DNA of 51,734 bases from Actinomycetales bacterium (GTDB lineage: Bacteria > Actinomycetota > Actinomycetes > Actinomycetales > Microbacteriaceae), in NCBI GenBank assembly GCA_028868975.1, contig JAGWTM010000003.1:1-51734 (forward strand), written 5' to 3'. Positions within the stretch are counted from its first letter, which is position 1; every line of letters begins with the position of its first letter. This document shows, piece by piece, positions 8,077 to 47,820 of the stretch. Position numbers and translations under genes: made by a program. Under the pieces are notes generated by a model. That model was not told the origin of the DNA. It made no database searches and saw nothing but the letters and a program-made list of their open reading frames with translations.

Positions 8077-10335
<2,259 letters not shown>

Positions 10336-10349
10336 CTCGCACGAAGTAG

Positions 10350-10376
10350 AAGGGATGCGCCGAGGCGCATCCCTTT
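10350..10376 (+). terminator. Rho-independent terminator after icd
   Basis: AAGGGATGCGCC ga GGCGCATCCCTTTT. Confidence 0.85.
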
Positions 10377-10499
10377 TGCTTTGCGCGTTCGTATCGCGGT
10401 CTGCGCACCCGGCGCTCTTGAAAATTACTTTGCCAAAACGAAATGCCGACGCAAACGCGCGTTCACGCTAGAGCGCTATTTTGCATCTGGAGGAATCGA

Positions 10500-11627
10500 A
10501 TGAAGCAACGGGTCATTATTGTCGGCGGTGGTGTTATCGGCACCATGCATGCCTGGCGGTGCATCGAGCGTGGTCTAGAGGTTGTGCATCTGGAAAGAGA
10601 TCCGATGCCGACGATGGCTTCGGTCCGCAATTTCGGGTTAGTTTGGGTAGGCGGGCGTCGGGCCGGCCATGAGCTAGAGGTAGCGTTACAGGCTCGTCAG
10701 CTTTGGGCTGATTTGGCACAGGCAAACCAGAAACTTAGTTTTCGCGCCAACGGGTCACTAACCATTGCCCGGACTTCTGAGGAACTCAAAGTACTGGAGC
10801 AGAGCATGGACCTGCCCGATGCTGACGCTCGAGGCTGGGAGCTGCTCTCTGCGTCGCAAGCGCGCAAGCTCAACCCAGCGCTTGACGGCGAATTTAGAGC
10901 AGCACTGCACTGCCGTTTGGATGCGGCCGTTGAACCAGGCAGCGTGCTCACCAGCATCCGAGACTACCTCTCGCTCACCGACGCATACACGTGGATGCCA
11001 AGCACCGATGTGCTTGAGGTCAAGGAGACCGCCGAAGGTGTTTCTGCTGTCGCTTCGGATGAGGCCATCATCCACGGCGATTTCGCGATTGTTTGCCCGG
11101 GAGCAGACCACACGGGGCTATTTGCCGGAGAGTTTGAAGCGGCGCCTCTGCGACGAGTGCGTCTGCAAATGTTCAGCACCATGCCACTCGGGGTAGATTT
11201 GACCACCTCGATTGCCGACGGTGATTCTTTGCGTTACTACCCCGCTTATGAGGTTCCAGCACTAGCTGAATTGCCGCCTCAGCATCCGGTTGCCGAGGCC
11301 GCCAAAATGCAACTGCTCATGGTTCAGCGAACCGACGGCAGCCTGACAATCGGAGACACTCACGAATACGATGAACCATTTGACTTTGCTCTTCGCGAGC
11401 CCGAGTATGACTATCTCATCCAAGTGGCGGAGGGAATCCTGGGCAGGCGTTTGCCGAAAGTAGCCCGGCGCTGGTCCGGTGTTTACTCTCAGCGAACCGA
11501 CGGCGCGGTGTGTGAACGGCAATTTGTGGGCAAGAGAATTGCGTTGGTTACCGGGCCCGGTGGCCGAGGCAATTCACTGGCACCGGCAATCGCCGAAAAC
11601 ACTCTCGATGATTGGGGCATCCTTTGA
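10500..11627 (+). CDS. FAD-dependent oxidoreductase, DAO superfamily (TIGR03364-like, aminophosphonate-associated)
   Basis: N-terminal 'VIIVGGGVIGTMHAWRCIERGLEVVHLERD' and C-terminal 'ALVTGPGGRGNSLAPAIAE'. ATG at 10500 with GGAGG upstream. The family call rests on motifs and on the adjacent PhnX-like HAD. Confidence 0.8.
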   Translation: MKQRVIIVGGGVIGTMHAWRCIERGLEVVHLERDPMPTMASVRNFGLVWVGGRRAGHELEVALQARQLWADLAQANQKLSFRANGSLTIARTSEELKVLEQSMDLPDADARGWELLSASQARKLNPALDGEFRAALHCRLDAAVEPGSVLTSIRDYLSLTDAYTWMPSTDVLEVKETAEGVSAVASDEAIIHGDFAIVCPGADHTGLFAGEFEAAPLRRVRLQMFSTMPLGVDLTTSIADGDSLRYYPAYEVPALAELPPQHPVAEAAKMQLLMVQRTDGSLTIGDTHEYDEPFDFALREPEYDYLIQVAEGILGRRLPKVARRWSGVYSQRTDGAVCERQFVGKRIALVTGPGGRGNSLAPAIAENTLDDWGIL

Positions 11628-12295
11628 TTCGTCTCATCGCTTTTGACGTCGCAGGCACTACCGTCTCAGACGGCGGGCTAGTTCTTCGAGCCTTTGAGCG
11701 CGCCTTTTCTGAAGTTGTGCCTAATCGCTGGGCAGCAGAATCCGAGCAGTTCCGGCAGTACGCCATAGCGACGATGGGTCAGTCGAAGATCGAGGTTTTT
11801 TCTTCGATGCTTGGCGATGCCGATGTCGCGGCAGAAGCAAACGTTGCATTCGAGTCGGCGTACCTTTCCTTGGTTCGCGCTGAAGGCATTTCTGAGATCC
11901 AAGGTGCTTCTGATGTCTTTGTGGAACTGAAATCCCGAGGACTGAAAATAGCGCTCACTACTGGATTTAGTCGTGCAACTCTTGACGCCATTCTTGAGTC
12001 GCTGGAATGGACAGAAATTATTGACGCTTCGGCGGTTCCGTCGGAGGCTGGCGCAGGTCGTCCTAATCCAGCCATGCTCGATTTTGTTTCACGGAAGCTT
12101 TCGATAAACCCTGACGAAGTAATTGTTTTGGGCGATACGCAGAGCGATATGCAAGCTGCTGTTCGATTTGGTGCGGCTGAGGTAATTGGTGTCTTGACAG
12201 GAACTCACAGCACCTCAGAGCTGATAGAGGCAGGTGCGAACACCGTGCTTGAGTCAGTTCGTAAGCTTCCTAACCATTTGTTCAATCAGCGTTAG
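11612..12295 (+). CDS. Phosphonatase-like HAD hydrolase (PhnX-like, TIGR03351-like)
   Basis: 'FDVAGTTVSDGG' (DxAGT), 'MGQSKIEVF', 'GAGRPNPAML' (Arg instead of Lys), 'LGDTQSDM'. Alternative TTG start at 11624 overlaps the upstream TGA. Confidence 0.85.
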   Translation: MGHPLIRLIAFDVAGTTVSDGGLVLRAFERAFSEVVPNRWAAESEQFRQYAIATMGQSKIEVFSSMLGDADVAAEANVAFESAYLSLVRAEGISEIQGASDVFVELKSRGLKIALTTGFSRATLDAILESLEWTEIIDASAVPSEAGAGRPNPAMLDFVSRKLSINPDEVIVLGDTQSDMQAAVRFGAAEVIGVLTGTHSTSELIEAGANTVLESVRKLPNHLFNQR

Positions 12296-12414
12296 TCATT
12301 CTTTCGGGTTTGGGTTCATAGCAATTTCCTAGTTAGTGACCTTCTGTTCTCTTTCGAAGTTTTCACTATTGGCGAGCCGAGATTTATCGGCCTCACCCAA
12401 TACAAGGAGAGTAA

Positions 12415-13620
12415 ATGAACCTCAAGCGTGTAATCGCTGCGGCGGCCGTTTCGGCATTCGCAATGAGCGTAGCGGTAACCGTTAGCGCGCCAGCTCAGGC
12501 CGCCGTCAACTACTGCAAGGTCACTGACCTAAAGACCGCGGGTGGCATGGATGCCCTCGTCGCAGCTGCCAAAAAGGAAGGCAAGCTAAACGTCATCACA
12601 CTGCCTCGTGACTGGGCAAACTATGGCGAAGCCATGGACCTATTCAGCAAGGCATTTGGAATCAAGATCACTGACGATAACCCAGATGGCTCATCGGCCT
12701 ACGAAATTCAGACCATCAAGACTGCACCTGCGGCCAAGCAGCCTGACGTTGTTGACATCGGCGTCTCGGCCTTGAACGGTGTTATCGGAGCTGGTCAGGC
12801 AAAGCTTTTTGCGAACTACAAGGTTGCAAACTTCGCCGCAATTCCAAGCAAGTGGAAGTCAGAGACCGGCAACTGGTACGGCGACTACAACGGCATCATC
12901 GGCATCGCATACGACGCCAGCGTTTCGCCTGCCCCGACCAAGATTGCTGACCTAACCAACCCTGCTTACAAGGGCATGGTCGCACTCACCGGTGACCCAA
13001 CCGCTGGTCAGGAGCCTTTCATGTCTGTCTACGCTGCCTCGATTGCAAACGGCGGTTCAGTGAGCAACATCAAGCCAGGCCTTGACTTCTTCAAGAAGCT
13101 CAAGGACAGCGGAAACTTTATCGCAACCAAGGCGACTCCAGAAAACTACATCGCTGGTGCTTACAAGATCTCGCTGACTTGGAACTTCAACGCTCCAGGC
13201 ATGATTGCCGGCGCCAAGGCGGCAGGCAAGAACCTGAAGTTCGTTATTCCATCGGACGCAGTTCTTGCGGGCACTCCGTACATCCAGGCAATCAACGCTA
13301 AGGCTCCACACTGTGCCGCGGCTCGCCTGTGGGAAGAGTTCCTTTACTCAGAGAACAAGGGCAAGACCAGCACTCAGCTGACCGCGGCAGACTTGAAGCT
13401 CTCGGGTTCGAAGTTGTTCAACCTGATTCGTGGCGGTCAGAACATCTTCGTTTCGGGCGGTGCAACCCCAATTCTGCAGGCAGACATGCTCAAGAAGAAG
13501 ACCTTGATCAACGGCCCAGCTGGCTTCAACGTTCCTTCGGGTTCCAAGGTTTACCAGCCAAGCCCAGACCAGCAGGTTGATGGCAAGGCAGTCGTCGCAG
13601 CAACCTGGCCAACTCTCTAG
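12415..13620 (+). CDS. ABC transporter substrate-binding protein, Fe3+/spermidine/2-AEP type
   Basis: Signal peptide 'AAAAVSAFAMSVAVTVSAPAQA'; 'AAKKEGKLNVITLPRDWANYGEAMDLFSKAFGIKI'. RBS AAGGAGAG before the ATG. Confidence 0.82.
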   Translation: MNLKRVIAAAAVSAFAMSVAVTVSAPAQAAVNYCKVTDLKTAGGMDALVAAAKKEGKLNVITLPRDWANYGEAMDLFSKAFGIKITDDNPDGSSAYEIQTIKTAPAAKQPDVVDIGVSALNGVIGAGQAKLFANYKVANFAAIPSKWKSETGNWYGDYNGIIGIAYDASVSPAPTKIADLTNPAYKGMVALTGDPTAGQEPFMSVYAASIANGGSVSNIKPGLDFFKKLKDSGNFIATKATPENYIAGAYKISLTWNFNAPGMIAGAKAAGKNLKFVIPSDAVLAGTPYIQAINAKAPHCAAARLWEEFLYSENKGKTSTQLTAADLKLSGSKLFNLIRGGQNIFVSGGATPILQADMLKKKTLINGPAGFNVPSGSKVYQPSPDQQVDGKAVVAATWPTL

Positions 13621-13623
13621 TCA

Positions 13624-14526
13624 ATGCAAAAAACCAGCAACAACCCTGCCCGTGGAGGTGCCTCAAATTGGGGCGCCTCCATGGGCAAGGCCCTTCGCCC
13701 CGTAATTGCTCTCACGCCTCTGCTGGCCTTCATGGGGATCTTTTTCTTCTCACCAATTGCAGCTGTGATTGTGGATTCATTTCACGACAACTCCGGTGAA
13801 TTCTCGCTGATCAACTACGTCGATGTCTTGAGGGAACCCATCAAGACAGCTCTGATTACCAGTTTTGGTCTCGCACTGGTTTCGGCACTTACCGCTTCAA
13901 TTCCAGGCGCCATATTGGCGTTCCTAATCGAGAGTCGTGGCTCACAGCGACTGCGCCAACTGATTGCTTCAATTGCGGGAGTTCTCGCTAACACCGGTGG
14001 TGTCCCGCTCGCATTCATGTTTATAGCGGCGCTTGGCGCAGAGGGTGCGGCAACCAGTTTTCTCAAAGCCCTCGGCTTCGACCTGTATTCGACAGGTTTT
14101 TCCCTATACAGCTTTTGGGGCCTAGTCGTTGTCTATTCCTACTTCCAGATTCCGATGATGGTCATTGTTTTTTCGCCAGCCATCCACGGTCTCCGACGCG
14201 AGTGGAGTGAAGCTGCGCGCACTCTGGGTGCAACAACTGCACAGTTTTGGACGCGAATCGGCATCCCTCTGCTTTTCCCGAGTTTTTTCTCATCGTTTTT
14301 ATTACTCTTTGCCAGCGCGTTCAGCGCTTATGCCACTGCTAGGGCCATGACCAACGGAACGATCCCACTGGTTCCACTCATGATTGGCAACCTACTTGAT
14401 GGGAATGTCATCTTCGACGAGGTGAACCTAGCCAAAGCCCTGGCGGTCGCTATGGTCCTGGTTACCCTGGCGGCGATGGTTCCGTATTTGGTCATTCAGC
14501 GCCGTGCCGAACGGTGGCAAAAATGA
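13624..14526 (+). CDS. ABC transporter permease
   Basis: Six-TM permease with the EAA-like loop 'EWSEAARTLGATTAQFWTRIGIPLL'. Confidence 0.88.
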   Translation: MQKTSNNPARGGASNWGASMGKALRPVIALTPLLAFMGIFFFSPIAAVIVDSFHDNSGEFSLINYVDVLREPIKTALITSFGLALVSALTASIPGAILAFLIESRGSQRLRQLIASIAGVLANTGGVPLAFMFIAALGAEGAATSFLKALGFDLYSTGFSLYSFWGLVVVYSYFQIPMMVIVFSPAIHGLRREWSEAARTLGATTAQFWTRIGIPLLFPSFFSSFLLLFASAFSAYATARAMTNGTIPLVPLMIGNLLDGNVIFDEVNLAKALAVAMVLVTLAAMVPYLVIQRRAERWQK

Positions 14527-15305
14527 GATTGATACGCACTAGAAAGCTTCCGCTGGCACTCGCGATGTTGCTGGCGGGTGTGTATGTGCTTTTGCCCATC
14601 GTTGCTGCCACGGAATTCTCGCTGCGGCAGCCGGCTAAGGGCGATCACGGATTCGACAATTACGCGTGGTTCATGTCCGATCCAGACTTCGGAAAATACC
14701 TCGGAATTTCTTTCGGTCTAGCGGCCTACTCAGCCATCATTTTGCTAGTCGTGCTTGTTCCAACAGTGGTGTGGCTAAATCTTAATGGCGCAAAGTTCAG
14801 GCCTTTTGTCGAATTCATTTCTTTGATGCCGTTGGTTATTCCAGTAGTTGCGCTAGCCATCGGTGCTCAAACAGCGCTGCCTGAGTTTGCCCAAACCGAC
14901 GAGACAGTTCTCGCTTACATGTTTGCAGTACTCGCGCTGCCATATGCCTATCGAACTATGGACACCGGGCTTCGCTCCGTTCCACTTCGAACACTCGTCG
15001 AGGCTGCGCGTGGGCTTGGAGCAGGCTGGATCCGCACAATATTGCTCGTCATCATCCCTGTGGTCCGCGGATCTGTGTTGAATGCGCTCTTCATGACGCT
15101 CGCCCTTTCGCTGGGTGAATTTACTCTGACCTCTCTTTTGCACTGGGACACGTTCACTACCTGGGTAACAACAATGTCCCAGTCGAACATTTTGGGTGCC
15201 ATTGCACTCTCGATGTTTTCTCTAGGCGCTGTGTTTGCGCTGCTCTTGGGAGTCGGATTGTTTGTGCGACACCCGAAATCAAACGTTGTTTCTGAGGAGG
15301 AATAA
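14514..15305 (+). CDS. ABC transporter permease
   Basis: EAA-like loop 'LVEAARGLGAGWIRTILLVIIPVV'. Overlaps the preceding permease. Confidence 0.88.
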   Translation: MAKMRLIRTRKLPLALAMLLAGVYVLLPIVAATEFSLRQPAKGDHGFDNYAWFMSDPDFGKYLGISFGLAAYSAIILLVVLVPTVVWLNLNGAKFRPFVEFISLMPLVIPVVALAIGAQTALPEFAQTDETVLAYMFAVLALPYAYRTMDTGLRSVPLRTLVEAARGLGAGWIRTILLVIIPVVRGSVLNALFMTLALSLGEFTLTSLLHWDTFTTWVTTMSQSNILGAIALSMFSLGAVFALLLGVGLFVRHPKSNVVSEEE

Positions 15306-16354
15306 TGACTAGCTCAACCTTGAGTTTGAAGGGTGTTACACGCCGGTTCAAAGAAACCCTCGCGCTCGACTCGATTGATCTCCATGTGAACCAGGGCGAA
15401 TTAGTTGCTCTGCTGGGGCCTTCGGGTTGCGGAAAAACTACCGCGCTCAGAATCATTGCTGGATTAGACAGGCCTGACAGTGGTCACGTATCGGTTGGCG
15501 GAGTTGACATTTCTTCTCTGGCGCCGAACAAGCGAAACATGGGCATGGTTTTTCAGTCGTACTCGCTTTTTCCGAACATGACAGCCGTTGAGAACGTCGC
15601 CTTCGGTCTTGAGATGCGTTTTGTTAAGCGACGTGAGAGGCAACTACGTGCTCAAGAATTGCTGGCCATGGTTGGTCTTCCGAACCATGCAAAACGGTAT
15701 CCACACCAGCTTTCGGGAGGGCAGCAACAGCGCGTCGCGCTGGCCCGCGCGCTAGCGTTCGAACCCGATGTGCTTTTGCTAGACGAACCTTTGAGTGCCC
15801 TTGACGCACAGGTTCGATCTAATCTCCGTGATGAAATTCGGCGACTACAGCTAGAAACCGGCACCACCACAATCTTTGTCACCCACGACCAAGAAGAAGC
15901 GATGGCAATGAGCGATCGGGTCGCGGTGATGAACCACGGCAAAATCGCACAAATTGCCGCACCGGCTGAGCTCTATCACTTTCCTGCAGATGCTTTCGTC
16001 GCTGGCTTTGTCGGTCAAATGAATCGCATCCCCGCACAAATCACAGGCGACAAAATGCGCATCCTTAATTCCCTCGTCGATTACCGACCGGCGAACATCC
16101 TCGGCACCGAAGTGGTGGCTTTGGTGCGACCAGAGAATCTTTTAGTTGAGCTCCCCAAAGGTGCGAGGGGAGTAGCGAACGCAATCGTCGAGTCAAAAAC
16201 TTTCTTAGGCGCAATCACCAAAGTATCGCTTCGCGTGTCGGACTCCTTGAGCTTGCTAGCCGCAATGCCGGGGTTGCAATCCACCGGTTTCGAAACAGGT
16301 ACACCGGTTTCGGTGAAGATCCAGGACGGCACCTACCTGGCAGTGGAGGCATAA
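15305..16354 (+). CDS. ABC transporter ATP-binding protein
   Basis: Walker A 'LGPSGCGKTTALR', signature 'LSGGQQQRVALARAL', Walker B 'VLLLDEPLSALD', and a C-terminal TOBE-like region. Confidence 0.93.
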   Translation: MTSSTLSLKGVTRRFKETLALDSIDLHVNQGELVALLGPSGCGKTTALRIIAGLDRPDSGHVSVGGVDISSLAPNKRNMGMVFQSYSLFPNMTAVENVAFGLEMRFVKRRERQLRAQELLAMVGLPNHAKRYPHQLSGGQQQRVALARALAFEPDVLLLDEPLSALDAQVRSNLRDEIRRLQLETGTTTIFVTHDQEEAMAMSDRVAVMNHGKIAQIAAPAELYHFPADAFVAGFVGQMNRIPAQITGDKMRILNSLVDYRPANILGTEVVALVRPENLLVELPKGARGVANAIVESKTFLGAITKVSLRVSDSLSLLAAMPGLQSTGFETGTPVSVKIQDGTYLAVEA

Positions 16355-17947
16355 GTGACCAAACACATTTCATCCCGTTTCGGCTTCAAGCGACACCTTG
16401 CTGAAAATGGATTCACTCGCACAGAACTGGTCCTGGAGCCCGCAGATGCAATGGCTGGGGAAGCTCCCGCAGAGGCCAGTCCGCTTGCTACTTTTATCCA
16501 CCTCAGCGACTTGCACGTCTGTGACGCGAAGTCTCCTGCTCGCATCGAATTTTTAGATCGATACGCAGACCCTGACTACGCGACGCGAGAGATTATCGAC
16601 TACGTAGGAACATACAGACCGCAGGAGTTCCTCACGTTGCAGGTAATCGAAGCCATGGTTCAGGCGGCGAACTCTATCGCCGTCGGCCCTCTGCTCGGAG
16701 CCGAAGTTGACGGCGTTCTCATCACCGGCGACGTCATAGACAACGGACAAGCCAACGAGCTGGAATGGTACCGGCAGCTAATGGAGGGCGGACCAGTCTC
16801 GTCTGCCAGTGGACAGGCTAACCTGATCGAGGCTGCCCATGGCACCCACCCAGCATTTACCGATGATCACTACTACAAGCCCGATACGACGGGCAGCCAG
16901 AGAACCATCGAAAAATGGGGAATGGTTCCCGTTCCTGGCCTCGAGGTCGCGGCTCAGGCGGAGTTTGTTGCAACGGGTTTGACGCACCCATGGTACGCAA
17001 TCCACGGCAATCACGATGCGATGCTCCAAGGAATGGTTCCTCCGACGGATGAGCTCAATTCTCTCGTCACAGGCAGTCAGAAGTTATCGGGTGTTGCGAA
17101 CGGAGTTGACCCACGGGAAGTCTTTGCAGAATTCAGTGAGGTTGGGCCGGCCAACTATCCGAGCACAGAACTGTTGACTCAGACCCCGGTAACGCAAGAT
17201 TCGGCACGTCGATTCGTCGAGATGAATGACTGGGTTTCTTCGCACACAGACTGTGGTCATGACCACGGCCTCAGTGTCGACCAAAAGGTTGCTTATTGGA
17301 CCCGAGACTTTGGTGATGTAAGGGTTATTGCCCTAGACACAGTCAACGTGTGGGGAGGTTGGCAAGGCTGCATTGACCCTCAGCAATTTAGCTGGCTGAC
17401 AGAGCTGCTTAGCCAATCAATTGGTAAATACGTGGTTTTGACTTCACACCACCCGCTGCAAGATCTCTTCAACGGGTACGCCCCTGAGGGAGAGCAGAAA
17501 CCACACCTCAAGGATGAGGTAGCCAACTTGCTGGGCGCATACCCGAATGTGATTGCCTGGATTAGCGGTCACGTTCACGACCACAACATCTCGTTTCAAG
17601 AGTCTCAGTCAGGAGCTTGGGGGTTCTGGCAAATTCGAACGGGTAGTCACATGGATTGGCCGCAGCAGGCCAGGGTGATTGAGATTGCTAAAACGCAGGA
17701 TGGCCGAATTGCCATCGGAACGCAGGTCTTTGATCATTTCGGTAACAGTATTTTGTCATTGCCGGACCTCGCTGATCTGGGTGCGGCAGACCTAGCCGAG
17801 CCTCGCTGCCTTGCGGGAATTTCAAGAGTTCTGGCAGCTAATGACTGGCAACGTTTCGCCGGCTCGAATTCACTCGAAGTTCTGGAAGGCACTCCCGCTG
17901 ACCGCAACGCGTGGCTTTGGTTGCAGGACCCCTTCGCCACAGCCTAG
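16355..17947 (+). CDS. Calcineurin-like metallophosphoesterase (TIGR03767-like), no evident signal peptide
   Basis: 'IHLSDLHVCD', 'GVLITGDVIDNG', 'AIHGNHDA', 'VLTSHHPL', 'WISGHVHDHNI' give the full metal-ligand set. It starts immediately after the ATPase stop. Confidence 0.82.
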   Translation: MTKHISSRFGFKRHLAENGFTRTELVLEPADAMAGEAPAEASPLATFIHLSDLHVCDAKSPARIEFLDRYADPDYATREIIDYVGTYRPQEFLTLQVIEAMVQAANSIAVGPLLGAEVDGVLITGDVIDNGQANELEWYRQLMEGGPVSSASGQANLIEAAHGTHPAFTDDHYYKPDTTGSQRTIEKWGMVPVPGLEVAAQAEFVATGLTHPWYAIHGNHDAMLQGMVPPTDELNSLVTGSQKLSGVANGVDPREVFAEFSEVGPANYPSTELLTQTPVTQDSARRFVEMNDWVSSHTDCGHDHGLSVDQKVAYWTRDFGDVRVIALDTVNVWGGWQGCIDPQQFSWLTELLSQSIGKYVVLTSHHPLQDLFNGYAPEGEQKPHLKDEVANLLGAYPNVIAWISGHVHDHNISFQESQSGAWGFWQIRTGSHMDWPQQARVIEIAKTQDGRIAIGTQVFDHFGNSILSLPDLADLGAADLAEPRCLAGISRVLAANDWQRFAGSNSLEVLEGTPADRNAWLWLQDPFATA

Positions 17948-17948
17948 G

Positions 17949-18413
17949 TCAGTTCGAGTGCTGCGCCTCGTAGGCCTCAAGCATGCGGCGCAGATAATTC
18001 GCGACCGCTTGCTTTTGAGTTTTCGACATCTCAGAAAGCGCTTCCTCGCTGGCCTCGATTAGTGGTCTGATGTGATGCCATGCGGTTCGAACCGAGTCGG
18101 GATTCGGCACGACAATCACACCGCGTCGATCTTCAGGGTTCGCTTCTCGTGTCACGTGACCCACCTCAACCAAACGGTCAATCATCACGGTTGCCGTGCC
18201 CGGGCTCACACCTACGGCTTTTGCTAGCTGACCCGCGGTCATCGGACCGTTTTGAATCAGGTGTTCCATCGCCTCGAAATCGGTGCGGTTCACATCGAGG
18301 TGGTCGCCAACAAACTTGGCGTAGGCAGCGCTCTCTTCAAGGACTTGCCTGAAGAGCATCGTGGCTTCGGATGCCTGTCCGGAGAATTCTCCGGAGTTGG
18401 GAATTTTGTTCAT
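17949..18413 (-). CDS. MarR family transcriptional regulator
   Basis: wHTH region 'GPMTAGQLAKAVGVSPGTATVMIDRLVEVGHVTREANPEDRRGV'. Confidence 0.9.
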   Translation of the reverse strand: MNKIPNSGEFSGQASEATMLFRQVLEESAAYAKFVGDHLDVNRTDFEAMEHLIQNGPMTAGQLAKAVGVSPGTATVMIDRLVEVGHVTREANPEDRRGVIVVPNPDSVRTAWHHIRPLIEASEEALSEMSKTQKQAVANYLRRMLEAYEAQHSN

Positions 18414-18438
18414 TGCTTTTTATTTTAGAGATAAAGTA

Positions 18439-18453
18439 TTTTGAAATTCAAAA
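18439..18453. promoter_or_regulatory. Candidate MarR operator TTTTGAAATTCAAAA
   Basis: Perfect 7-bp arms around a central A, in the marR/MMPL divergent intergenic region. Confidence 0.5.
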
Positions 18454-18496
18454 GACTTTTTATTAGGTACATCAACACCATTTCGATGAGGTCGTA

Positions 18497-20689
18497 ATGA
18501 AACAGCTAGCCAAACTTATTTCCGGTCGAAAGTCTTCACCTCTGGTGATGCTTCTGGCCCTCTTCTTTGCCGTCGGGGCATTCATGATGCCAGCCGAATC
18601 CGAGTCCGCTCCTTCGGTTGGGCTGCCCGCCTCAAACGAAACCATGGTGGTCGCCGATGTCCTGGCAGACTTGCCCGGCCAGGATGGCACCGCGGCCATC
18701 GTTGTGTTCCGTACCAAAGATGGCAAAGCGATGTCAGAAGCTCAGAAGAACTGGATTCTTGGCACACCAACCACGATTAGCCCAGCGCCGGGTGCTCCCG
18801 CAGTAACGACATATGCGGGTGGAGTCAACGAGAAATTCCGTGATTTCAGCAACGTTGAAATCCAAGGTAAGAAAGTCGTCGCCCCGGCAACCTTGAGCGC
18901 CGATTCGACGACCGCCAGCGTTGTCATTTCAATGGACAAGATCGAGAAGCCTGCCCCCTGCACCCCGGTAGGCAAGACCGTAGCGGTCGATGAATGCACC
19001 ACGGTCCAGCTAACCGCTCTTCGAGCGAGTGAAATTCGATCAGCCGCCAAAGATGCAATTCCTGCTGGTTTGAACACTGCCTTGACCGGACCAGAAGGAT
19101 TCCAAGCCGATCTGAACAATGTTTTCGCCGGCGCCAACTTCACGCTTCTCGGCACAACCGCCCTGGTTGTTGTGCTCCTTCTGCTAATCACCTACCGCTC
19201 GCCGATTCTCTGGATCGTGCCACTCGCGGTCATCGGCACCGCTGACGCGATGGCGGGCAGGCTGGCTGCTCAAACCGCTCAGTGGTTTGGCATCGACAAA
19301 CTCGACGGTTCGGTCACGGGCATCCTTTCGGTGTTGGTTTTCGGAGCCGGAACCGACTACGCGCTGCTGCTCATTTCACGTTATCGAGAGGAGCTGTTGA
19401 AGCATGAAAATCGTCGCGATGCCATGTACGCCGCCTGGCGCGGAGCGGCACCCGCGATCTTTGCCTCGGGCCTGACCGTCATCCTTGCTCTTCTAACACT
19501 CGAGCTCGCAGAACTTCAAGGCACCAGGGCTCTCGGTATTGCATGTGCAACCGGTGTAGCCGTAGCCATGATTTCGGCACTGTTCGTCCTCCCCGCTGCA
19601 CTGGTCACCTTCGGTCGCTGGATCTTCTGGCCGGTGGCTCCGAAGTTGGGCGGAATCAACAAGAGCGAAAACGGACTCTGGGCTAAGTTGGGCCGCGGGG
19701 TCAGCAAGCGTCCATTCATCGTTGGTCTCGCCGGCCTGGGAGTGCTTGCCGCTTTGGCGACCAGCGCTACCGGCGTAAAGATCGGCCTCTCAGCCAACGA
19801 CCAATTCGTTTCGAAGCCTGAGGCTGTGATTGGAGCCGAATATCTTTCGGCCGGATTCGGCTCAGAGACGACCGTCGATGTCATCGCGAAGAACGGCACC
19901 GAAGAGGCCGTCCTCGCCGCTGCAAAGACTGTTTCGGGCGTCAAGGATGCGGTCGTCGCAACTCTGCCCGGCACTGGAAAGGTGCTTTCGGGTGACGCGT
20001 ACACCAAGTTAACCGTCACGCTCGAGGCCGAGTCGCTGTCTCAGCAGTCCTTTGACACCATCAAGGCACTCCGAGCCAAGCTGCAGGGTGTGTCCGGTGC
20101 CGACGCAAAAATCGGTGGGCAAGAGGCGCAACAGCTCGAGGTAACCAATGCATACGAGCGTGATCAAAACAAGATCATCCCGATTATTCTCGGGTTGGTT
20201 TTCTTGGTCCTGCTCGTGTTGCTGCGATCGATCGTTGCTCCGGTTCTTCTTATGATCACCGTGGTCGGCTCCTACTTCGCGAGCCTGGGAGCGGGTTGGT
20301 GGATCTTCACAAACATCCTGGGTTACCCCGCACTCGACCTAAGTGTTTACCTGTTCTCGTTCCTGTTCCTCGTGGCTCTGGGCGTCGACTACAACATCTT
20401 CTTGGTGACCCGAGCGCAGGAAGAGAGCGGCAAGCTCGGATTGCGCCAAGGCATGATCAAGGCGCTCGCATCGACTGGCGGTGTAATCACCTCGGCCGGT
20501 GTGCTGTTGGCGGCGGTGTTCGCGGTCCTTGGCGTTCTGCCGCTCATCGCCCTGCTTCAGGTAGGTGTGATTGTCTGCATCGGTGTTCTGCTTGACACCT
20601 TGTTGGTGCGCACCGTCATCGTTCCGGCGCTGGCATTTATCGCCGGTGAGAAGTTCTGGTGGCCTCGCAAACCAGCGATCACCGAATAG
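18497..20689 (+). CDS. MMPL family RND-type transporter
   Basis: 'FGAGTDYALLLISRYREEL' and 'LFLVALGVDYNIFLVTRAQEE'; two repeats of TM segments and extracytoplasmic domains. Confidence 0.92.
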   Translation: MKQLAKLISGRKSSPLVMLLALFFAVGAFMMPAESESAPSVGLPASNETMVVADVLADLPGQDGTAAIVVFRTKDGKAMSEAQKNWILGTPTTISPAPGAPAVTTYAGGVNEKFRDFSNVEIQGKKVVAPATLSADSTTASVVISMDKIEKPAPCTPVGKTVAVDECTTVQLTALRASEIRSAAKDAIPAGLNTALTGPEGFQADLNNVFAGANFTLLGTTALVVVLLLLITYRSPILWIVPLAVIGTADAMAGRLAAQTAQWFGIDKLDGSVTGILSVLVFGAGTDYALLLISRYREELLKHENRRDAMYAAWRGAAPAIFASGLTVILALLTLELAELQGTRALGIACATGVAVAMISALFVLPAALVTFGRWIFWPVAPKLGGINKSENGLWAKLGRGVSKRPFIVGLAGLGVLAALATSATGVKIGLSANDQFVSKPEAVIGAEYLSAGFGSETTVDVIAKNGTEEAVLAAAKTVSGVKDAVVATLPGTGKVLSGDAYTKLTVTLEAESLSQQSFDTIKALRAKLQGVSGADAKIGGQEAQQLEVTNAYERDQNKIIPIILGLVFLVLLVLLRSIVAPVLLMITVVGSYFASLGAGWWIFTNILGYPALDLSVYLFSFLFLVALGVDYNIFLVTRAQEESGKLGLRQGMIKALASTGGVITSAGVLLAAVFAVLGVLPLIALLQVGVIVCIGVLLDTLLVRTVIVPALAFIAGEKFWWPRKPAITE

Positions 20690-46722: not shown

Positions 46723-47820
46723 ATGAAGAAGGTTTCGAAACCAAAACTGGCTCTGATTGTCCCGCTGGCATCGATGGTGTTGGCCTGGGCGCTACTCGCT
46801 ATCGCTATGTACGTCTCGTTGTTCGAACGTGACTACGAGTACATGAATGTGGTGCTGCGGCCCGTCCAGGTGAACTGGAGTGTTTACGCCTTCCTCGCAG
46901 CCATCGTCTCAATCAGTTTGGGCTCGCTCTGGGGTCAGCGAACCGCACTGCGCGCGCGCCACGCGCTCGGTCAAGATCACGCTCTCGCGCGGGCCGTGCA
47001 CCGATTCAACAACCTTCTGCTCTGGGTCAGCATCGGTTTCGGCGTTGTGTTTGTGTTCGGAAACTTCATGTCGGCGTTCAGCATCTTCGGGGCGCGCAAC
47101 TCGTTGCTCGGTGCGCGCATCCTCGGTGTTTATCTGCCGATTGTTCTGGCAACCGCCCTCGTAGTTTTGGTGATCCTGCGGGCCTTTGTTTTCAGGGCCG
47201 ACGGCGTTGATATTGACGAACAGGATGAGCAGGCGAAACAGGCGGCTCGAGCACGCCGACGCAATCTCGGCCTGGGTTACGCGGTGCCCATTCTGACCAC
47301 CGCTTTCGCGATTGTCCTCGGGTTGCTGATCTATGACGCGACCAAGACTCCGCTGCAAACCTGGGTTTGGGTTTTGATCCAGGCCATCGTGATTCTCGGA
47401 ATCATCGGCGGAACCAGATTCGCGAATCGCGCCAAGCAGGGCGAGAGCGTCATCGCAAAGCCACGTGCCGTGTTCGCCTCGCTGGCCGCGGGTGCCGCGA
47501 ACCTCAATCTGGTGCTTAGCATCGCATTCGGTGGCGTCGTTAGCATCATTGCCATCAGTAGCACCGCCGGAGCAATTGACAAGCTCTACCGCTACGGCCA
47601 GTTTGACGACATGGGCAAGCCAATCACCGATTCCACCGTCACAGCATTGAGTTGGAATTGGTACATCGAAGATCTAGCTCCTGCCAAGGTCCTTGTCTTG
47701 CTAGTTGCGGTGGGCACCTATCTCACGATCACAATTCGCAACAGGGATGCGTCTGCGCAGGCCTCGCAGGCTTCTGGCGCTGCAGAGCCAGCGGCCGAGT
47801 CGGCAACCGACCAAAACTAA
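46723..47820 (+). CDS. Hypothetical multi-TM membrane protein
   Basis: Long ORF with several hydrophobic segments; family not recognised. Confidence 0.75.
   Translation: MKKVSKPKLALIVPLASMVLAWALLAIAMYVSLFERDYEYMNVVLRPVQVNWSVYAFLAAIVSISLGSLWGQRTALRARHALGQDHALARAVHRFNNLLLWVSIGFGVVFVFGNFMSAFSIFGARNSLLGARILGVYLPIVLATALVVLVILRAFVFRADGVDIDEQDEQAKQAARARRRNLGLGYAVPILTTAFAIVLGLLIYDATKTPLQTWVWVLIQAIVILGIIGGTRFANRAKQGESVIAKPRAVFASLAAGAANLNLVLSIAFGGVVSIIAISSTAGAIDKLYRYGQFDDMGKPITDSTVTALSWNWYIEDLAPAKVLVLLVAVGTYLTITIRNRDASAQASQASGAAEPAAESATDQN

Follow-up and report, generated by a model that had tools for sequence, protein, structure and literature searches.

The locus described here raises the question of whether a small-genome actinobacterium could take up and degrade aminophosphonates with neither the transaminase PhnW nor a C-P lyase. 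It lies in a window of 51,734 nucleotides, the whole stretch of DNA that was analysed, from a bacterium of the Microbacteriaceae whose assembly of 1.39 Mb is 90.6% complete. The initial annotation described a same-strand, nearly contiguous set of seven genes and proposed that they import and catabolize an aminophosphonate. ORF calls on the window bear out this arrangement, with seven near-contiguous ORFs on the + strand spanning positions 10500-17947:

10500..11627, + strand: FAD-dependent (DAO fold) oxidoreductase, TIGR03364/PbfD-type (TIGR03364, 299.7 bits; PF01266)
11624..12295, + strand: HAD-superfamily phosphonatase-like hydrolase (TIGR03351, 184 bits; D-x-A-G-T-T and cap lysine)
12415..13620, + strand: ABC substrate-binding protein (SBP), SBP_bac_6 class, distantly PhnS-like (PF13343, 49.5 bits)
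13624..14526, + strand: ABC permease A (PF00528; top NCBIfam match PRK15050, AEP permease)
14514..15305, + strand: ABC permease B (PF00528; top NCBIfam match PhnV)
15305..16354, + strand: ABC ATPase (top NCBIfam match TIGR03265, PhnT2)
16355..17947, + strand: calcineurin-like metallophosphoesterase (MPE), TIGR03767-like, proposed phosphodiesterase (TIGR03767, 313.8 bits; metal motifs)

The oxidase gene probably starts at the ATG at 10500, which has a GGAGG ribosome-binding site. The HAD gene has an alternative TTG start at 11612 besides the TTG at 11624, and its overlap with the oxidase gene is accordingly 16 nt or 4 nt (TTGA). The two permease genes overlap by 13 nt and permease B and the ATPase gene by 1 nt; 3 nt separate the SBP gene from permease A, and the ATPase and MPE genes abut with 0 nt between them. 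The earlier description of start/stop overlaps at most junctions is a fair one, the sole real gap being the 119 nt (12296-12414) between the HAD and SBP genes. This gap measures 88-130 nt in related loci and possibly holds an internal promoter. An Rfam scan of the window returned four tRNAs only, with no riboswitch in the gap. PHO-box-like GTTCACC repeats 5′ of the oxidase gene and in the same gap were rejected for the window, where they are not significant (p 0.09 and 0.13). They look good in some loci (e.g., L140 and L103), but the test used related sequences and a motif picked post hoc, and the repeats serve as a lead only.

Upstream of the cluster, an NADP-isocitrate dehydrogenase gene (TIGR00178) ends at 10335. 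A strong hairpin with a T run (GGGATGCGCCGAGGCGCATCCCTTTT) lies 3′ of this gene, in window positions 10336-10500; it appears to terminate the upstream gene, and the operon therefore likely has its own promoter. Downstream, a MarR-type gene (17949-18413, − strand) is convergent with the operon. This regulator is divergent from a gene for a 730-aa RND/MMPL-like transporter (window 17949-20689), and the two are probably an unrelated efflux pair. Elsewhere in the window, a 365-aa ORF at 46723-47820 has no Pfam match at E 0.001.

The first enzyme carries the strongest family assignment. Its score of 299.7 bits exceeds the curated TIGR03364 cutoff of 285.1 bits, and the score against ThiO is 82.8 bits. 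The PbfC and PbfD enzymes have been shown to oxidize N-methyl-AEP, a derivative of 2-aminoethylphosphonate (AEP), to phosphonoacetaldehyde (Zangelmi et al. 2023, PMC10590968). This reaction has been proven for PbfD1 of A. baumannii, which is annotated as TIGR03364, whereas PbfD2 accepts AEP too and can replace PhnW, and a pathway of PbfD2 and PhnX has been described (PMC10590968). In many Terrabacteria the PbfD homologues sit outside phnWX/WYA clusters (PMC10590968). The window oxidase shares 29-34% identity with TIGR03364 proteins of Acinetobacter, Comamonas, Gloeocapsa and others, and in the tree the actinobacterial clade sits on a very long branch, apart from the Acinetobacter, Comamonas and Gloeocapsa references. 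Low identity and a long branch suggest that the substrate could have shifted, for example to 1-hydroxy-AEP.

The adjacent hydrolase has TIGR03351 as its best NCBIfam match, at 184 bits under a cutoff of 218.9 bits; against the PhnX model TIGR01422 it scores 70.1 bits, also under the cutoff (220 bits). Typical HAD phosphatases carry a DxD motif where phosphonatase-like HADs have DxA. The PhnX-type motifs reported earlier are present by alignment: in an alignment of 13 HADs, the cap lysine and the motif 1 residues D, A, G, T and T do not vary. A profile of these proteins searched against solved structures placed the phosphonoacetaldehyde hydrolase of B. cereus first (E 2.9e-33). The cap lysine aligns with the Schiff-base lysine of this PhnX (K53), and chain 2ioh, which we take to be the K53R mutant, has arginine at this column. 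The PhnX proteins of Acinetobacter and Comamonas have the lysine in common with window-type HADs, which lack the His56 that follows it in PhnX and have GDT in place of the Acinetobacter/Comamonas DDT.

The importer is divergent. It has the same components as the AEP importer PhnSTUV, namely an SBP, two permeases and an ATPase, the last being closest to PhnT2. Unlike PhnSTUV, all of its components fall under the AEP model cutoffs: permease A at 51.8 bits for PRK15050 (cutoff 247), permease B at 35.7 bits for PhnV (cutoff 358.7) and the ATPase at 412.7 bits for TIGR03265 (cutoff 457.7). The SBP carries an N-terminal export signal and matches PRK15046 and PhnS weakly (34.9 and 30.1 bits, AEP cutoff 310), whereas the SBPs that accompany relatives of the enzyme pair are of the PhnS type. 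In its predicted structure (pLDDT 87) the nearest solved entry is 5t1p, a protein with no known ligand, and the fold neighbours, which include polyamine, citrate and iron binders, indicate no ligand. Searches with TIGR03364, TIGR03351 and TIGR03767 thus returned each family proposed in the initial annotation as the best match, with TIGR03351 and TIGR03767 below cutoff; as the other components fall under their cutoffs, membership is strict for TIGR03364 only.

The link to aminophosphonates is drawn from relatives of the enzyme pair. A scan of genome contigs gave 422 oxidase relatives. Of the best 80, nearly all actinobacterial, 78 carry the HAD gene immediately after the oxidase gene. Loci sampled from Rhodococcus, Nocardia, Mycobacterium and Amycolatopsis numbered 14, and in every one the SBP next to the pair matches both AEP binding-protein models, with that of Rhodococcus erythropolis reaching 488.6 bits against the cutoff of 310. 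The R. erythropolis locus (L172), the one scanned further, also has a PhnF-like GntR regulator and PhnT- and PhnV-like genes. The TIGR03364 gene adjoins phnW, phnX and an AEP transporter in Acinetobacter, phnX in Comamonas, and a phosphonatase-like HAD and an AEP transporter in Tsukamurella. AEP transporters beside the pair in relatives thus connect it with aminophosphonates without recourse to the divergent transporter in the window.

A survey of gene neighbourhoods found the complete order FAD-HAD-SBP-permease-permease-ATPase-MPE in ten named actinobacterial loci besides the window. These belong to Microbacteriaceae, Nanopelagicaceae (including a Ca. Planktophila MAG) and other uncultured actinobacteria, and other loci are interrupted solely by contig ends. 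Such recurrence of one order means that the grouping of these genes is not accidental. The locus counts rest on the homology table, as ORF calls in GC-rich loci merged or missed genes. The oxidases of the seven-gene loci form one clade with 99/92 support, counting loci whose contigs end before the last genes. Within the genus the cluster is accessory, the oxidase being found in 6 of 67 genomes, one of them with a contig-end fragment. A GMC/cholesterol-oxidase-like gene near several seven-gene loci was set aside as a shared chromosomal neighbourhood and is not in the window. Directly 3′ of the MPE gene in locus L114 (17414-17986) is a gene for a PhnZ-like HD-domain oxygenase (TIGR03276, 204 bits), and similar genes adjoin the oxidase gene in L124 and L163. 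The L114 gene suggests that a second putative C-P cleaving route was added to that operon.

The absence of phnW noted in the window extends to the genome: phnW was not above cutoff in the host genome or in five sister genomes, the best score being 29 bits against 400.8. As for the claimed lack of a C-P lyase, phnJ was likewise not found in any of these six genomes. Family matches, motifs, conservation and these absences support the proposal of AEP-type import, an oxidase in place of PhnW and a HAD that would cleave the C-P bond, and uptake with oxidase-plus-HAD catabolism is judged very probable.

We infer every reaction and substrate, together with the ester step, which is the weakest of them. 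The seven genes would act as an operon-like unit for scavenging phosphorus, and perhaps nitrogen, from 2-aminoethylphosphonate-type compounds. The ABC importer would take up the aminophosphonate, probably also in N-methylated or esterified form, and the signal-less MPE would cleave the ester bond to leave free aminophosphonate in the cytosol. The PbfD-type flavoenzyme would then oxidize the C-N bond, yielding phosphonoacetaldehyde and ammonia or methylamine, with H2O2 as a further product if O2 is the acceptor. Finally, the TIGR03351-type HAD would bind the aldehyde as a Schiff base on its lysine and break the C-P bond to give phosphate and acetaldehyde.

A rival to this scheme is that the operon encodes an amino acid oxidase of the glycine/sarcosine type along with a generic phosphatase of the HAD superfamily and a transporter of the polyamine or iron type, with no link to phosphonates. 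PF01266 is indeed a broad family, and the SBP fold has polyamine, citrate and iron binders as neighbours. The oxidase nevertheless scores 300 bits for TIGR03364 against 83 for ThiO and its relatives adjoin AEP transporters, the HAD has DxAGT and the lysine rather than DxD, and a PhnF-like regulator and a PhnZ-like gene also occur beside relatives, which makes this explanation very improbable. Another rival is a pathway dedicated to 1-hydroxy-2-aminoethylphosphonate or a close AEP analogue, in which the oxidase would produce a hydroxy-phosphonoacetaldehyde and the HAD, of the TIGR03351 type rather than a PhnX, would split it into glycolaldehyde and phosphate. PMC10590968 quotes the TIGR03364 description as proposing a route of this type, and the distance of the oxidase clade from the PbfD1-type reference, a HAD family distinct from PhnX and the loss of PhnX His56 are consistent with it. 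The PbfD enzymes tested so far act on AEP and N-methyl-AEP (PMC10590968), however, and the actinobacterial pairs adjoin AEP transporter genes; such a specialization is considered unlikely.

The greatest doubt concerns the seventh gene. The MPE falls just under the TIGR03767 cutoff (313.8 against 330.75 bits), this family being its best match, and all five metal motifs are intact (DxH, GDxxDN, GNHD, HH and GHxH). Its structural model (mean pLDDT 76, low at residues ~220-269) has the phosphodiesterases SMPDL3A/B and GpdQ as nearest solved folds; these share the calcineurin-like metal motifs, although identity is ~12-16%, the MPE is larger and the TM-scores are moderate. No export signal was found in the window protein, whereas several relatives have Tat-like leaders. 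TIGR03767 proteins of Actinomycetia, such as the Cutibacterium MPP (PMC9723661), are of the same family by best match; the window protein differs in lying just under the cutoff, in lacking the Tat-like signal of some relatives and in being operon-bound. No relative was found in viral contigs. We know of no enzyme dedicated to an aminophosphonate ester step.

Alternatively, the MPE could just travel with the operon and work independently of it, as a phosphoesterase that scavenges phosphorus or acts on nucleotides; the imported compound would then not be its substrate. Genes of the TIGR03767 family are found outside this cluster (above cutoff in 11 of 149 genomes of the order), FAD-HAD pairs elsewhere lack an MPE, and 12 loci have a window-type SBP nearby and no MPE (e.g., in Actinospica and Kitasatospora), so that the importer can do without an ester and the MPE is an add-on. 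On the other hand, every one of the 11 actinobacterial loci with a long enough contig has the gene in this position, and full-length TIGR03767 matches in the 67 genomes of the genus occur in exactly the 5 with a complete oxidase gene, a coincidence of ~1e-7 if the genes were independent, although they are physically linked. The phosphodiesterase-like fold and the missing signal peptide also speak against an independent role, which is a serious contender just short of probable. Given the importer encoded beside it, the simplest function for the MPE is to split an ester inside the cell, and we tentatively favour a role in freeing the aminophosphonate from an ester that has been taken up. A tentative and more doubtful extension is that the whole operon may serve esterified aminophosphonates specifically, for example glyceryl-AEP from phosphonolipids: a specialized importer would bring in the diester, the MPE would act in the cytosol as the phosphodiesterase that frees AEP, and the PbfD-like and TIGR03351-like enzymes would release phosphate.

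The core idea is published: experiments reported in 2023 established that TIGR03364/PbfD enzymes can take the place of PhnW (PMC10590968), which makes the initial proposal less new. The window shares with the PbfD2 and PhnX pathway an FAD oxidase standing in for PhnW, none being present in the genome, and, as the next enzyme, a HAD that hydrolyses the C-P bond with the help of a lysine. It differs in that the oxidase belongs to a deeply diverged actinobacterial clade, the HAD is TIGR03351-like rather than PhnX, and there is an extra MPE and a different transporter. What is new is the actinobacterial TIGR03364/TIGR03351-like pair as a separate clade, along with a divergent importer and an MPE that is conserved. 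The open-licence papers searched contained nothing that names TIGR03351 or treats the seven-gene set, which is weak evidence of novelty, and TIGR03767 appears there in one paper, on phosphate solubilization.

If the aminophosphonate scheme is true, small-genome actinobacteria, including the lineage Ca. Planktophila, one of those whose names point to a lake habitat, would use aminophosphonates with neither PhnW nor C-P lyase, and surveys by phnW, phnX or phnJ would miss such a route. It also offers, for one branch of the TIGR03767 phosphoesterases, a hypothesis of function that can be tested directly, and, as judged from sequence, would extend the established PbfD idea to a large and mainly actinobacterial clade, with 422 relatives in one scan.
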